IMG/VR virus record: IMGVR_UViG_3300030406_000364
Coordinates: 1 to 50,469 of that record
DNA: 50,469 bases
Strand: one strand, 5' to 3'
Source: a virus
Part shown: positions 8,028-24,556 of the stretch, one piece after another
How positions within the stretch are numbered: position 1 is the first letter of the stretch
Layout of the letters: each line of letters begins with the position of its first letter
The notes under the pieces: generated by a model
Seen by the model: the letters and a program-made list of their open reading frames with translations, nothing else
The model's database searches: none
What the model was told of the DNA's origin: nothing
Translations under genes and position numbers: made by a program

Positions 8028-8057
8028 ATTATACACTACTCCCCACTTAATTGTCAA
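8028..8057 (-). promoter_or_regulatory. strong promoter for the packaging/head operon
   Basis: On the minus strand, a consensus TTGACA (8057-8052), an 18-base spacer and a consensus TATAAT (8033-8028), with TAGTG directly before the -10. Transcription would start near 8021, leaving a leader of about 50 bases before TerL. Both hexamers are perfect sigma70 matches, so host RNA polymerase should use it. Confidence 0.75.
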
Positions 8058-8141: not shown

Positions 8142-8357
8142 GCACGCACGATTTTTGGGGTGGGGTGTAGTCTCTATAGACTACAAAGTCTCATTATCTC
8201 TAAAGAGATACCTTAAAGTGCTTAAATATTAGGCAATCTTATAGATTGCACAAAAATTAGGCAGATGAATGCTTAAATTTTCATCATTCATGCGTGTATA
8301 ATGCATATATTTGCGACATGATATGCCTACAAATTAGGCAGTTAAACCTTTGGTTTA
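8142..8357 (+). other. array of short hairpins, possible structured RNA or origin region
   Basis: Between the divergent arms lies a run of inverted repeats with little spacing: 8166-8185 (8-bp stem, 4-base loop), 8195-8210 (7 bp, 2-base loop), 8233-8249 (7 bp, 3-base loop), 8265-8291 (7 bp), 8303-8326 (6 bp) and 8343-8357 (6 bp, 3-base loop). Woven between them are three copies of ATTAGGCA (8228, 8256, 8333). No ORF explains the region. It is less AT-rich at 8142-8185 than its surroundings. The dyads could be single-stranded replication signals, a folded RNA or protein-binding iterons. I can show the pattern but not the role. Confidence 0.5.
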
Positions 8358-8368
8358 CTTACTATTTT

Positions 8369-8404
8369 TTATTAATATATGAATGTATATGAATATATTA
8401 ATAA
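8369..8404 (+). repeat. AT-rich stem-loop repeat, copy A
   Basis: A perfect 12-bp inverted repeat (TTATTAATATAT at 8369-8380, its complement at 8393-8404) around the 12-base loop GAATGTATATGA. Within it, ATATGAAT occurs twice, 10 bases apart (8377 and 8387). First of five related elements. Confidence 0.8.
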
Positions 8405-8456
8405 ATAAATAGATGATGAAGTTGTTGTCGTTTTGATGAATGGCAATGATGAAATT

Positions 8457-8508
8457 TTGACAACATAATTAAAATATAATATATGAATGTATATGAATAT
8501 ATTATATT
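8457..8508 (+). repeat. AT-rich stem-loop repeat, copy B, with TTGACA
   Basis: A perfect 12-bp inverted repeat (AATATAATATAT at 8473-8484, complement at 8497-8508) with the same loop as copy A, GAATGTATATGA (8485-8496), and the same 10-base spaced ATATGAAT pair. A TTGACA lies at 8457-8462, so this may be a promoter with an operator across its -10 region. It precedes the 55-aa gene by about 30 bases. Confidence 0.75.
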
Positions 8509-8535
8509 ATTAATTAATAACTTTGGAGATTGAAC

Positions 8536-8703
8536 ATGAACGAACAAATTTGTAGTTTATTAGGCATGGCTATGGTTATATTTTCCATAGTCGCACTAAT
8601 ACCAACTATACATGCCAATATCGTATGGTTGGGAATTATACTAACAATTAATATATTAATTGGCATTGTTTTGATGTCAATTCACCAAATACTTGACACA
8701 TAA
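8536..8703 (+). CDS. 55-aa membrane protein, unknown function
   Basis: A small ORF beginning ATGAACGAACAA with a TTGGAG site about 10 bases upstream. The product is very hydrophobic and has two likely transmembrane helices, about residues 8-24 (LLGMAMVIFSIVALIP) and 29-49 (IVWLGIILTINILIGIVLMS). It is the first gene of the plus-strand arm, directly behind stem-loop copy B, so it is likely expressed immediately after infection. The stop lies just beyond the TTGACA of copy C. Early membrane peptides of this size may act on the host envelope or exclude other phages; no family is recognised. Confidence 0.6.
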   Translation: MNEQICSLLGMAMVIFSIVALIPTIHANIVWLGIILTINILIGIVLMSIHQILDT

Positions 8704-8741
8704 TTAAAAATAATATATGAATACTTATGAATATATTATTT
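8693..8741 (+). repeat. AT-rich stem-loop repeat, copy C, with TTGACA
   Basis: TTGACA at 8693-8698, then 17 bases to TATGAA (8716-8721), which is also the first of two TATGAAT boxes 10 bases apart. The flanking arms form an 11-bp perfect inverted repeat (8708-8718 with 8731-8741) around the loop GAATACTTATGA. It lies 24 bases before the start of the Gp88-like gene. Confidence 0.75.
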
Positions 8742-8764
8742 ATTAATTAATATTGGAGATGATT

Positions 8765-9538
8765 ATGATTTACGATTTATCAAAATTGCCAAAGGCAACA
8801 CAAAAAGAAATACAGAATAATTATTCTGAATTGTTTTCTAAATTTCCAGAAAATTTATTTTCTGTTAATGCAGATACAAAAACTAAAAAAGGTAAAAAAC
8901 TAAAAGTTTTGACAGGTATTATGTACCTTGCACCATATAAGTTAAGTGGTGTTAATGTCTGCCCTATGGCAGAACTAGCTAGATGTCATGAAGGTTGTTT
9001 AAATACTGCTGGTAGAGGACAATTTACATCTAATCAGATGGCAAGGTTAAGAAAAACATTGTTTTATCAACAATATCCTATTGAATTTAAACAGTTAATT
9101 CGTAAAGAATTAAACAGATTGATTAGACAAGCTAATAAAATAAACTTCACGCCTATGGTGCGATTGAATGGCACATCAGATGTGAGGTGGGAATTGTTTA
9201 TGCCAGAAATATTTAAAGAATATTCACATATACAATTCTATGATTACACAAAAATACCTAACAGAAAGTTAGGTAATATACAGAATTATGACGATACTTT
9301 CAGTTATTCTGGCGTAAAAGAATATCAACCTATGGTTGAAAAAGCTATTAAGAATAACAAAAGAATAGCAGTAGTGTTTAGAAGTAAAGAGAATCAACCA
9401 CGCACATTCATGGGAATGGATTGTGTGAATGGTGATGATACAGATGTAAGACCATATGATAAGCAAGGTGTGGTTGTTACTCTGTATGCCAAAGGCAAAG
9501 CTAGAAAAGATACTTCTGGTTTTGTAGTTGACAATTAA
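8765..9538 (+). CDS. phage Gp88-like (DUF7227-type) protein
   Basis: A 257-residue protein. I place the start at the ATG at 8765 because GGAG at 8755-8758 is six bases upstream; an earlier TTG or ATG would lie inside or against that site. The motif CPMAELARCHEGCLNTAGRGQ begins near residue 67, and VRLNGTSDVRWE follows near 135. Both are hallmarks of a family found in many phages (mycobacteriophage gene 88 type), with conserved Cys and Asn residues that suggest a metal or catalytic site. The biochemical role is unknown. Behind stem-loop copy C, it is probably an immediate-early gene. Confidence 0.7.
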   Translation: MIYDLSKLPKATQKEIQNNYSELFSKFPENLFSVNADTKTKKGKKLKVLTGIMYLAPYKLSGVNVCPMAELARCHEGCLNTAGRGQFTSNQMARLRKTLFYQQYPIEFKQLIRKELNRLIRQANKINFTPMVRLNGTSDVRWELFMPEIFKEYSHIQFYDYTKIPNRKLGNIQNYDDTFSYSGVKEYQPMVEKAIKNNKRIAVVFRSKENQPRTFMGMDCVNGDDTDVRPYDKQGVVVTLYAKGKARKDTSGFVVDN

Positions 9539-9558
9539 TTACCAATCTGGTAACAAAA

Positions 9559-9607
9559 TAATTATATATAATACTTGAAATGTATATGAAAGTATTATAT
9601 ATAATTA
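9559..9607 (+). repeat. AT-rich stem-loop repeat, copy D
   Basis: The longest copy: an 18-bp perfect inverted repeat (9559-9576 with 9590-9607) with the 13-base loop GAAATGTATATGA, one base longer than in copies A and B. There is no clear TTGACA before it. Just upstream is a separate small dyad, TTACCA-ATC-TGGTAA (9539-9553). Confidence 0.75.
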
Positions 9608-9675
9608 ATACAAACTTAAATATTCTGCCTGCGATATTTGAGTTTCTTTTAACAAGCATGGCATGGAGAACGACT

Positions 9676-9825
9676 ATGACTAACAGATATGGAAACCCAA
9701 CAGTAGCTAGATTTTATAACAAAGGTTATAATTCAGTTGATAGGGATATAAAATCTGGTAGATTTGTTTCTAAAGTGAAACCATCTACATCTTGGATTTC
9801 AAAAGTATTAAATATATTTATTTAA
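9676..9825 (+). CDS. 49-aa basic protein, unknown function
   Basis: I choose the ATG at 9676 (MTNRYGNPTVARFY) because GGAG lies at 9665-9668. Upstream in-frame starts would be inside stem-loop copy D and give an unlikely product. The peptide is basic (NKGYNSVDRDIKSGRFVSKV) and ends in a short hydrophobic tail (SKVLNIFI). It is an early gene of the repeat-controlled block. No family is recognised. Confidence 0.5.
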   Translation: MTNRYGNPTVARFYNKGYNSVDRDIKSGRFVSKVKPSTSWISKVLNIFI

Positions 9826-9842
9826 TTCTCCAAGACTGATTT

Positions 9843-9869
9843 GGTAGTTTGCAGTATAACTAAACTACT
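9843..9869 (+). promoter_or_regulatory. hairpin before the T5orf172-like gene
   Basis: GTAGTTT (9844-9850) and AAACTAC (9862-9868) form a perfect 7-bp stem with an 11-base loop, extendable by one G-T pair. It sits in the 82-base gap between two early genes, about 40 bases before the next start, and could act as a terminator-like or leader element. No T-run follows. Confidence 0.35.
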
Positions 9870-9907
9870 GTTTAACATTAATAAAAAAAAGAAAAGGAAA
9901 TAAAATT

Positions 9908-10393
9908 ATGACTAAATTAGTAAATTCTAATGAAATATTAAATGTAATTAAAGCACAAGTAACTACAGATGCGAACCTAAAAAATCAAGATAGGAAAGCA
10001 TACATATACCTAGCTAAAGGTGGCTACAGTACCTATAAGATAGGTTTTAGCGTGAATCCAGAGCAAAGAGTAAGGTCTTTCAATACTGGTAGTTACCATG
10101 ATAATATTTTATTAGAAAAAATAGATGTGTCTGGACTTGTTGAACACCTAGAAGATAAAACAATAAATGTTATGGGCATTGTATATAAGAAAAGGAAACG
10201 TGAGTGGGTAAAAATACCTGCGATAGATTCTAAAATAGTAAAGGCTCAATTTAGATTTATCGTAAAGAATATGGTTAATCACATTCGTAAGAATGTAAGA
10301 GACCATGTTAAAATGGAGAATAAAGTATTAGAAAAATACAATATTAAACCAAAGGTAGTTAATGTACAAACAACTGTTGCATTATCTAAATAA
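9908..10393 (+). CDS. T5orf172 / GIY-YIG-like domain protein
   Basis: A 161-residue basic protein. Residues about 31-60 read AYIYLAKGGYSTYKIGFS, then RVRSFNTGS, matching the start of the T5orf172 (Mug113) branch of the GIY-YIG nuclease superfamily: the Y-x-Y strand, KIG(F/Y)S, and an arginine followed by a turn. The second half is Lys/Arg/Asn/Val-rich and could bind DNA. Catalytic Glu identity is unclear, so it may be a nuclease or only a DNA-binding relative. The start at 9908 has an AAGGAAA site. It is flanked by hairpins on both sides, suggesting separate expression. Confidence 0.6.
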   Translation: MTKLVNSNEILNVIKAQVTTDANLKNQDRKAYIYLAKGGYSTYKIGFSVNPEQRVRSFNTGSYHDNILLEKIDVSGLVEHLEDKTINVMGIVYKKRKREWVKIPAIDSKIVKAQFRFIVKNMVNHIRKNVRDHVKMENKVLEKYNIKPKVVNVQTTVALSK

Positions 10394-10399
10394 TATTAA

Positions 10400-10430
10400 T
10401 AGTGTGTATGCTGTTGGAGTATGCACACTA
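10400..10430 (+). terminator. hairpin after the T5orf172-like gene
   Basis: TAGTGTGTAT (10400-10409) pairs with ATGCACACTA (10421-10430): ten pairs including one G-T, loop of 11 bases. It starts seven bases after the stop codon. There is no T-run, so it may be a processing or partial termination signal, not a classic terminator. Confidence 0.4.
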
Positions 10431-10449
10431 TAAGCATAAGGAAAATAAC

Positions 10450-10503
10450 ATGGATAACGAATTATTATTTTATATATGTGTGATTATTTTATTTTTACTT
10501 TGA
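10450..10503 (+). CDS. possible 17-aa hydrophobic peptide
   Basis: ATGGATAACGAA, preceded by AAGGAAA, encodes a 17-residue peptide that is almost one membrane helix (LLFYICVIILFLL). The stop codon lies within the TTGACA of stem-loop copy E, the same arrangement as the 55-aa membrane gene and copy C. It is too short to be certain. Confidence 0.3.
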   Translation: MDNELLFYICVIILFLL

Positions 10504-10548
10504 CATTTAATTAAAAATAATATATGAATACTATATGAATATATTATT
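10500..10548 (+). repeat. AT-rich stem-loop repeat, copy E, with TTGACA
   Basis: TTGACA at 10500-10505, 17 bases, then TATGAA at 10523-10528, the same geometry as copy C. The loop GAATACTATATGA (10526-10538) is enclosed by a 10-bp perfect inverted repeat (10516-10525 with 10539-10548); ATATGAAT is repeated 11 bases apart. It precedes the long run of small early genes. Confidence 0.75.
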
Positions 10549-10572
10549 ATTTAATTATTAAAGGAGAACAAC

Positions 10573-10788
10573 ATGAATGAACTAGAAAAATTTATAACAG
10601 ACTTCCAAGAACATGCAATGGTGCATGGTTCTAAACATGCAGTAACTGGTGAGCATATGCCTAAAGGTTGGCATAGTGATACTATTATCCAAGCATGTGT
10701 TGAGAAGTTTGGTGGAAGTGTAGATGAAGATTTACAATTAGTCAAAGATGCGAAAGCATTTATGGTTAAACAAATAGAAAGGACATAA
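10573..10788 (+). CDS. 71-aa early protein, unknown function
   Basis: Starts 25 bases after stem-loop copy E with a strong AAAGGAGAA site. The product is soluble and helical (MNELEKFITDFQEHAMVHGS, later AFMVKQIERT), with several His residues. First gene of the long co-oriented run of small proteins. No family is recognised. Confidence 0.6.
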   Translation: MNELEKFITDFQEHAMVHGSKHAVTGEHMPKGWHSDTIIQACVEKFGGSVDEDLQLVKDAKAFMVKQIERT

Positions 10789-18948: not shown

Positions 18949-20012
18949 TAAAAGAATTTAAAGGAAGAAAAGATCATGCTAATTATATTAAGCGTGGTAT
19001 ACAAGTAGAGAATGAATTTATAAAGACTGTGCAAGAGCATGGTTATTCAGTTGGTATAGCAAATGACCAAGAGAATATGTTTAAACATATAGATTTCTAT
19101 CTAACAAAAGATAATAAGACAGTTAGTGTAGATGTAAAAGCTAGAAGAACTGGAAATAAAAATAAGTTTTTTGATGACACATGGATTGTTGTTGAGTTTA
19201 AAAATACAATGGGTAATAAAGGTTGGTTATATGGTGACTGTAATTACTTTGTATTTGAACGAGAGCATGACTACGTATGGTGCTATGCAAAAGAGTTGGT
19301 AGAATTAACTGACAAAGTTGTAGATAAAAATACCAGAGTAGAGAGTTATAAAGATGCTGAATACAAAACATGGGGTAGAAGTTATCAAGGAAAGCAAGAC
19401 CTTATCTCAAGAATAGAGATGAGTTTAATATTAAAATTGAGCAAAACATTTATTATGAAAAAAACTCTTGACAAAAATGTTGAGGTGTGTCATAATTCAT
19501 TTATTAATAATAAAGAAAGGAACACAATTATGAGTGTTATTAAAGGAAACGCTTATTGGGCAAGCGTAACAAGTCCAAACACCACTTTCGATAGTGATGG
19601 TGTGTGGTCTATAGATGTTGGTAATCTTGATAAAAAGAATGCTGATATTGCTAAAGCTGATGGTCTATCCATCAAAAATAAGAATGACGACAGAGGTGAT
19701 TTCGTTACAGTAAAACGTAAAGTGAGACGTAAAGATGGGAACATGAACAAACCACCTGAAGTTGTTGACGCAGGCAAACGTAATATGTCTGGCACATTAA
19801 TTGGTAATGGTTCAGAAGTTAATGTACTTTATACTACATATGAGTGGGAGTTCAAAGGTCGTTCTGGAGTTTCTGCTGATCTACGTGCTGTACAGGTAAC
19901 TAATTTAGTACCTTACAACACAGATGCTGATGCAGAGGAAGCTTTTGAAGTAGTTCCTGATGGCTTCGTAAGTAATGAATCTGATGAGGAATTATCCTTC
20001 GCTTCTAACTAA
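18930..20012 (+). CDS. PD-(D/E)XK nuclease joined in frame to ssDNA-binding protein
   Basis: One uninterrupted 360-codon frame holds two proteins. Residues 1-185 look like a PD-(D/E)XK nuclease: E29 (VENEF), D55 (HIDFYL) and D68-V-K70 (SVDVKARR), then VVEFKNTMGNKGWLYGD, as in phage endonucleases placed after T7-like polymerases. Residues 201-360 look like a separate ssDNA-binding protein. No stop separates them. However, an ATG at 19530 with AAAGAAAGGA upstream and a near-consensus promoter at 19468-19496 sit at the joint, so the second part is surely also made alone. The start at 18930 is chosen for its GTAGGGAGAA site. The longer product might be a minor fusion. Confidence 0.7.
   Translation: MGTDTLVKEFKGRKDHANYIKRGIQVENEFIKTVQEHGYSVGIANDQENMFKHIDFYLTKDNKTVSVDVKARRTGNKNKFFDDTWIVVEFKNTMGNKGWLYGDCNYFVFEREHDYVWCYAKELVELTDKVVDKNTRVESYKDAEYKTWGRSYQGKQDLISRIEMSLILKLSKTFIMKKTLDKNVEVCHNSFINNKERNTIMSVIKGNAYWASVTSPNTTFDSDGVWSIDVGNLDKKNADIAKADGLSIKNKNDDRGDFVTVKRKVRRKDGNMNKPPEVVDAGKRNMSGTLIGNGSEVNVLYTTYEWEFKGRSGVSADLRAVQVTNLVPYNTDADAEEAFEVVPDGFVSNESDEELSFASN
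19468..19496 (+). promoter_or_regulatory. strong internal promoter for the ssDNA-binding protein
   Basis: TTGACA (19468-19473), 17 bases, CATAAT (19491-19496) preceded by GTGTGT, giving an extended -10. The last part is identical to the Hsp20 promoter at 24421. Transcription would start about 25 bases before the internal ATG at 19530. Confidence 0.7.
19530..20012 (+). CDS. putative ssDNA-binding protein (internal start)
   Basis: A 160-residue protein read from the internal ATG in the frame of the upstream nuclease. It is beta-rich (MSVIKGNAYWASVTSPNTTF, later VTVKRKVRRKDG, then YTTYEWEFKGRSGVSADLRA), matching T7 gp2.5-type and other phage ssDNA-binding OB-fold proteins. It ends in a Glu/Asp-rich acidic tail with a final aromatic (ESDEELSFASN), the part that recruits polymerase and helicase in such proteins. 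It should coat single strands at the fork. It has its own promoter, and a long hairpin follows 11 bases after the stop, suggesting a separate abundant transcript. Confidence 0.7.
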   Translation: MSVIKGNAYWASVTSPNTTFDSDGVWSIDVGNLDKKNADIAKADGLSIKNKNDDRGDFVTVKRKVRRKDGNMNKPPEVVDAGKRNMSGTLIGNGSEVNVLYTTYEWEFKGRSGVSADLRAVQVTNLVPYNTDADAEEAFEVVPDGFVSNESDEELSFASN

Positions 20013-24146: not shown

Positions 24147-24412
24147 TTTGTTCACCTTGTATTGGTGTGTGTACACTAGAGAATGATGTTTGTATTGGTT
24201 GTTTTAGAACAAGTAAACAAATAGCTGATTGGGCATTTTATAATGATAAAGAAAGAGAAAAGATAATGAAAGAAACTAAACCTGCATTAGCTATAGAAGA
24301 TGTTGCATTAATTAGAAAAGTAATAACATATTATCTTAATAATATTTTTCCAGTTGATAAAGAAGAGCAAGAAAAACTAATGAACATCTTTCATAGGTTA
24401 GGTAGACTATAA
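24146..24412 (+). CDS. DUF1289 Cys-motif protein, probably with a non-ATG start
   Basis: The frame contains SPCIGVCTLENDVCIGCFRT followed by IADWAFYNDKEREKIM, the full DUF1289 signature (two C-x3-C/C-x2-C pairs, then a Trp helix). The first ATG or GTG option, GTG at 24167, cuts off the SPCIGV half. The motif is open back to 24131, and ATT at 24146 or ATA at 24143, overlapping the reductase stop, would restore it, perhaps by re-initiation. I therefore give the longer version. DUF1289 proteins are small putative Fe-S or zinc proteins of unknown function. The C-terminus is helical (LIRKVITYYLNNIF). Confidence 0.65.
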   Translation: MCSPCIGVCTLENDVCIGCFRTSKQIADWAFYNDKEREKIMKETKPALAIEDVALIRKVITYYLNNIFPVDKEEQEKLMNIFHRLGRL

Positions 24413-24420
24413 AAAAATGC

Positions 24421-24449
24421 TTGACTTTTATAGTAAAGTGTGTCATAAT
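24421..24449 (+). promoter_or_regulatory. promoter for the Hsp20 gene
   Basis: TTGACT (24421-24426), 17 bases, CATAAT (24444-24449) preceded by GTGTGT, an extended -10. The 11 bases through the -10 equal those of the SSB promoter at 19468. It lies in a true intergenic gap, about 107 bases before the Hsp20 start. Confidence 0.75.
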
Positions 24450-24556
24450 TACATCATAGAATGCCATTTTGGGTTCTATAAGAGAGTTCTGGTTAAAACT
24501 ACCATACAGTATTCAGCGTAGTCTCTCTATAACTCGCTTAATGAAAGGAGAAAAGC
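24450..24556 (+). promoter_or_regulatory. long leader of the Hsp20 gene with possible thermosensor folding
   Basis: About 100 bases separate the promoter from the Hsp20 ATG, unusual for this compact genome. Pyrimidine TCTCTCT (24522-24528) can pair with GAGAG upstream (24482-24486) or with the Shine-Dalgarno GGAGA (24547-24551). Such alternative folding is what RNA thermometers use in alphaproteobacterial hsp genes; here it is only a possibility. Confidence 0.35.

Follow-up and report, generated by a model that had tools for sequence, protein, structure and literature searches.

The stretch of DNA analysed here (the window) comprises 50,469 nucleotides, positions 1 to 50,469 of virus record IMGVR_UViG_3300030406_000364. 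Five stem-loops, designated A to E, lie on its + strand among short open reading frames and a GP88-family gene (Table 1). All five copies proposed in a first-pass annotation, at 8369, 8473, 8708, 9559 and 10516, are present, and the perfect arms of 10–18 bp and loops of 12 or 13 bases described there are confirmed, the inner arms of A to E measuring 13, 12, 11, 18 and 10 bp. In four of the copies, A, B, C and E, the helix extends further than first noted, to 18–19 bp: beyond a single bulged base in the 3′ arm, absent from D, lie 6–8 further pairs. Folded as RNA, the + strand forms 18–19 outer pairs in each of the five, with energies of −9.9 to −16.2 kcal/mol and z-scores of −2.3 to −6.4. No such hairpin with at least 10 contiguous pairs occurs in forty random 50-kb sequences matched to the dinucleotide make-up of the region, against four observed in addition to D. 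The five stem-loops exist and greatly exceed what chance would give. Each was said to stand upstream of an early gene, where "early" describes gene layout rather than timing. B to E have an open reading frame downstream; A is followed directly by a 7-codon frame and otherwise by no gene.

Table 1. Stem-loops and associated features of the window
Feature	Position	Strand	Remarks
Hairpin A	8362–8412	+	Cap GAATGTATATGA at 8381–8392; 104 nt ahead of B
TTGACA before B	8457–8462	+	19 nt before TATGAA; kept in relatives L001, L024 and L032; possible −35 element
Hairpin B	8466–8516	+	Cap GAATGTATATGA at 8485–8496; precedes ORF 8536–8703 (55 aa)
TTGACA before C	8693–8698	+	17 nt before TATGAA; overlaps end of upstream ORF
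Hairpin C	8701–8749	+	Cap GAATACTTATGA at 8719–8730; starts at stop codon of ORF 8536–8703
GP88-family gene (PF17338)	8765–9538	+	Downstream of hairpin C
Hairpin D	9559–9607	+	18 perfect pairs; tip GAAATGTATATGA at 9577–9589; precedes ORF 9676–9825
TTGACA before E	10500–10505	+	17 nt before TATGAA; overlaps stop codon of 17-codon ORF
Hairpin E	10508–10557	+	Cap GAATACTATATGA at 10526–10538; precedes ORF 10573–10788 (71 aa)

Other features of the window deserve mention. Several TTAGGCA repeats occupy positions 8225–8345, between divergent gene blocks. The leftward block, whose first open reading frame runs from 7972 to 6362, is headed by a perfect sigma-70 consensus on the − strand (8028–8057; TTGACA-18-TATAAT, 12 of 12 positions). 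Two promoter-like near-duplicates, CTTGACA...GTGTGTCATAATT, lie at 19458–19497 and 24411–24450 and are 75% identical over 40 nt. A 17-codon hydrophobic open reading frame (10451–10504) precedes hairpin E, and its peptide is kept in L242, L262 and L279.

The loops, originally taken to be open, re-pair at the tip. Within two GA dinucleotides, the fold of A, B, C and E places AT against AT, and the tips read GA, AT, 4–5 bases, AT, GA; D has a deviant cap with one extra A and is predicted to be open. GA opposite GA is the arrangement of tandem sheared G·A pairs, and the tip is therefore read as GA, two Watson–Crick pairs, a small loop, two pairs and GA. More generally, this GA cap consists of GA, 2 bp, a loop of 3–5 nt, 2 bp and GA on a stem of free sequence: the complementarity and the two GA dinucleotides are conserved, while the stem, inner pairs and loop vary. 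With GA/GA as the flanking dinucleotides, 65 long hairpins are found, a count over loci fetched by the motif that for this reason overstates frequency. Other dinucleotides tried give 0–6, except TA/TA, whose 22 are attributed to simple TATA palindromes. The small loop is often GNA, and GNA triloops with C–G closure are common, in part because GNA was built into seeds, which inflates these counts; many other loops are not GNA (ACTT, ACTAT, ATA, TTAA). The paired ATATGAAT boxes that the first-pass annotation regarded as the element are a by-product of cap symmetry combined with AT/AT inner pairs and a stem that starts with TAT. They are absent from the GA-cap hairpin upstream of the same GP88-family gene in the close relative L262.

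The exact 20-mer ATATGAATGTATATGAATAT matches 35 IMG/VR virus contigs, in which the copies are hairpins. One set of these contigs is closely related to the window (L001, L016, L024, L032), a second marine caudovirus group (records G002, 59.5 kb, and G004, 58.6 kb) forms another, and the remainder are singletons. Searches with later seeds brought in L242, L262 and L279 (at copy E), as well as L170, L177, L384, L442 and L107. Other seeds place the cap in the NAD-operon leaders of Vequintavirinae as well as in several groups of marine caudoviruses. An AC/GT seed finds long-stem leader hairpins in more phages, where a single record can hold as many as five copies in a cluster, and the second marine group has additional GA-cap hairpins with AC/GT inner pairs, outside the search pattern used. 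Vequintavirinae isolates (CR3, Pectobacterium phage phiTE, KaOmega, coliphage A73, SSBI34 and others) have leaders with one to three GA-cap hairpins; the genes that follow are small hypothetical ones, joined in most isolates by those for ribose-phosphate pyrophosphokinase and NAD salvage. In L341 (2501–2570) and other Vequintavirinae leaders, at least two such hairpins stand in tandem before the ribose-phosphate pyrophosphokinase or NAD-salvage genes and are unannotated.

No well-formed GA-cap hairpin is found in HMO-2011, HTVC103P, HTVC115P or CRP-7, isolated relatives with the same layout, and neither the window region nor the second phage group shows DNA similarity to isolated phages. A match near the attachment site of SPBc2 is single, short and imperfect and was taken as chance, and the ICP1 matches cover 18 bases of the query's tail without involving the hairpin. 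Nor is a host origin indicated: an 18-mer gives scattered matches in bacterial genomes, mostly with short stems. One 9.75-kb contig, L672, contains the CTGAACGNAGTGAAG pattern ten times on both strands and looks like a mirrored assembly. In bacteria too the GA cap is present, at terminator-like sites and in dispersed repeats. Since the bacterial dispersed repeat TGTCATTCTGAACGNAGTGAAGAATCT (L731–L750) carries it on a short stem, the cap itself is not phage-specific; what is reported here as new is its use on long leader hairpins.

Location relative to genes is strongly one-sided. Across both strands of nine virus records (G000, G002, G004, G015, G016, G017, G019, G020 and G023; about 370 kb), picked for carrying the motif but with positions elsewhere in them free to match, there are 24 GA-cap hairpins of 7 or more pairs, every one of them on the coding strand. 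As read from the listed sequence, 23 of the 24 stand directly before a gene start, the exception being copy A. Over all loci, a ribosome-binding site and start follow within 150 nt on the cap strand in 42 of the 65 long hairpins and on the other strand in 4; for random positions the figure is 24%. The hairpins sit in the gap that runs from the preceding stop codon to the following ribosome-binding site; the helix mostly ends 4–30 nt ahead of that site, and the start is outside the helix. In 49 of the 65 hairpins the complement folds less well than the cap strand. AC-type seeds taken together show a weaker strand bias (18 versus 10), and wobble-pair asymmetry offers too few usable cases over all 65 hairpins. 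The one-sidedness, the position between stop codon and ribosome-binding site, and the better fold of the coding strand all suggest that the element acts at the level of RNA.

Pairing is maintained while sequence changes. Pattern-only seeds fix the cap and two or three pairs, and all five further pairs form in 32 of 113 matches to AC-type seeds, against 0.67 with flanks shuffled among matches, and in 14 of 87 matches to AT-type seeds, against 0.5. In the 12 sequences of the second phage group, 96.6% of cells pair and five pairs change on both sides; covariation is 0.218 versus 0.105 in shuffles, none of 500 shuffles reaches 0.218, and sliding the pairing partners abolishes it. The GP88-family gene illustrates the same freedom. 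In L262 the gene is 91% identical and a GA-cap hairpin occupies the same place, with an AC cap (tip TTGAACGATAGTGAA) and a different stem. The window has an AT cap there, L442 has an AT cap with another loop, and no hairpin is found near the gene in L177, L384, L401 or L406. Because the element changes type or is absent beside this gene, the hairpin is a module, kept as structure and not as sequence. The B–C, C–D and D–E distances also differ between the window and L001: the hairpins persist, and the intervening genes differ.

The first-pass annotation had favored a family of early promoter-operators, with TTGACA and TATGAA as −35 and −10 elements and a regulator that would bind the twin boxes or the palindrome. 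The TTGACA hexamers at B, C and E are confirmed; TATGAA follows after 17 bases in C and E, and after 19 in B. The hexamer before E is retained in L242, L262 and L279 although adjacent upstream bases differ, and the hexamers persist even though the upstream open reading frames, whose ends they overlap, read them in different frames. B, C and E may thus also have a host promoter, its −35 element just upstream of the hairpin. Should the hexamer at C and E serve as a −35 element, RNA initiated from it would begin within the hairpin and be missing the 5′ arm. A and D have no TTGACA at the corresponding place, nor has the GP88 hairpin of L262, and a scan finds promoter-like sites in the region no more often than in shuffles. 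The box and operator portion is not supported. Loop conservation in relatives had been posed as a test, and in L262, at the 91%-identical gene, both tip and stem are different and the boxes are not kept. No half-site is conserved in all copies, as a protein-bound operator would have; stems vary freely with pairing kept, and arms that change on both sides in this way would not be expected of protein half-sites. A DNA palindrome would have no reason to be one-sided. Taken as a whole, the promoter-operator proposal is unlikely.

The idea least stressed by the earlier annotation, that the copies might also be RNA stem-loops in transcripts, is the one supported by the coding-strand location and the covariation. 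The copies may be hairpins of about two helical turns in the leaders and intercistronic gaps of rightward phage messages, shaping phage mRNA through processing or stability; we put this account at about an even chance of being correct. The two GA dinucleotides would form tandem sheared pairs and so a stable cap, allowing the helix to snap shut while the message is being made. In a polycistronic mRNA the hairpin could then serve as a boundary. It would either be cleaved by an RNase specific for double strands, host RNase III being one example, or block RNases, with the outcome that each small gene would obtain its own message end. A helix near two turns would suit either role. RNase III sites between cistrons have at least about 20 pairs, a length reached in A, B, C and E with 18–19 outer pairs, two inner pairs and two G·A; the total is 22–26 pairs in 25 of the 65 hairpins. 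An RNase III processing site is accordingly a prediction from helix length and position, and cutting, protection and protein binding would all fit the same sequence data.

Protein binding is the main rival to an mRNA-shaping role. The hairpins might be bound specifically by an RNA-binding protein, encoded by phage or host, that turns translation of the next gene down or up, as the short distance from helix end to ribosome-binding site and a tip that is the only conserved sequence would suggest. However, the loop bases vary widely, the start site does not lie within the helix, and the carrier phages have no protein common to all of them, a shared phage-encoded binding protein having been sought and not found. 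The window shares with other carriers replication and structural proteins and a few unassigned ones, each in only some carriers. We consider such a protein possible but rather doubtful. About equally tentative is a broader suggestion, that a tip-only RNA element has been gained repeatedly by unrelated double-stranded DNA phages before early or accessory genes, one conserved host factor recognizing the tip and being exploited to set the expression of new genes.

The hairpins might instead act as DNA, the cap aiding formation of single-stranded hairpins or cruciforms for replication, packaging or gene exchange. Extra-stable GNA and GNNA mini-hairpins such as GCGAAGC are known for DNA (PMC4686876), the form in which GNA triloops are best known, and many GA caps share with them a loop held by two closing pairs; the prevalence of C–G-closed GNA triloops, partly a matter of seed choice, adds to the resemblance. 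The occurrence of the same cap in dispersed bacterial repeats and the exchange of genes between hairpins, which mark junctions where small genes swap, would also agree with a role in DNA. Those mini-hairpins are synthetic single-stranded DNA without tandem GA or a long stem, whereas the GA cap occurs on one strand, the coding one, in every well-formed copy of the nine records and just before genes in nearly all. Many of its loops, moreover, are not GNA. A function in DNA seems quite improbable.

Almost nothing is known about regulatory RNA in uncultured marine phages. Four fixed tip bases plus complementarity make these elements findable in any genome without sequence similarity. They mark the plug-in places of accessory genes and, for AT-rich phages, make it possible to test directly how early messages are shaped.

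Comparison with described elements yields analogues rather than a match. Rfam 15 has no family over the hairpins of the window and several relatives, and the long hairpins of relatives retrieve only weak microRNA models below gathering scores. Literature searches found no described GA-capped phage hairpin. Intrinsic terminators are not indicated: the stems in the window are AT-rich, no T run follows on the + strand, and a terminator scan returns none of them. In N4-type hairpin promoters, used by the virion RNA polymerase, a 3-base loop lies on the template strand; here the cap is on the coding strand. The early genes of T7 have RNase III hairpins of about two helical turns in their gaps, a handful per genome, each before a ribosome-binding site. 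The GA-cap hairpins resemble these in length, gap position, number and proximity to the ribosome-binding site; we know of no conserved GA cap in the T7 processing hairpins. T4 and enteric bacteria use extra-stable RNA hairpins of the CUUCGG type between genes, likewise topped by a constant, stable tip while the helix sequence is free; their tip is C(UUCG)G, as against GA-NN-loop-NN-GA here. The T7 sites and CUUCGG hairpins are best regarded as candidate functional analogues, and the extended start-associated sequences (ESAS) of cluster K mycobacteriophages as a positional one. ESAS are inverted repeats with a 4–13-bp spacer; each genome has several, immediately before gene starts. Conserved 17-bp arms stand beside a 13-bp box, and their function is unknown (PMC3203893). 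In ESAS the arms are conserved, whereas in the GA-cap hairpins the arms are free and the tip alone is conserved.
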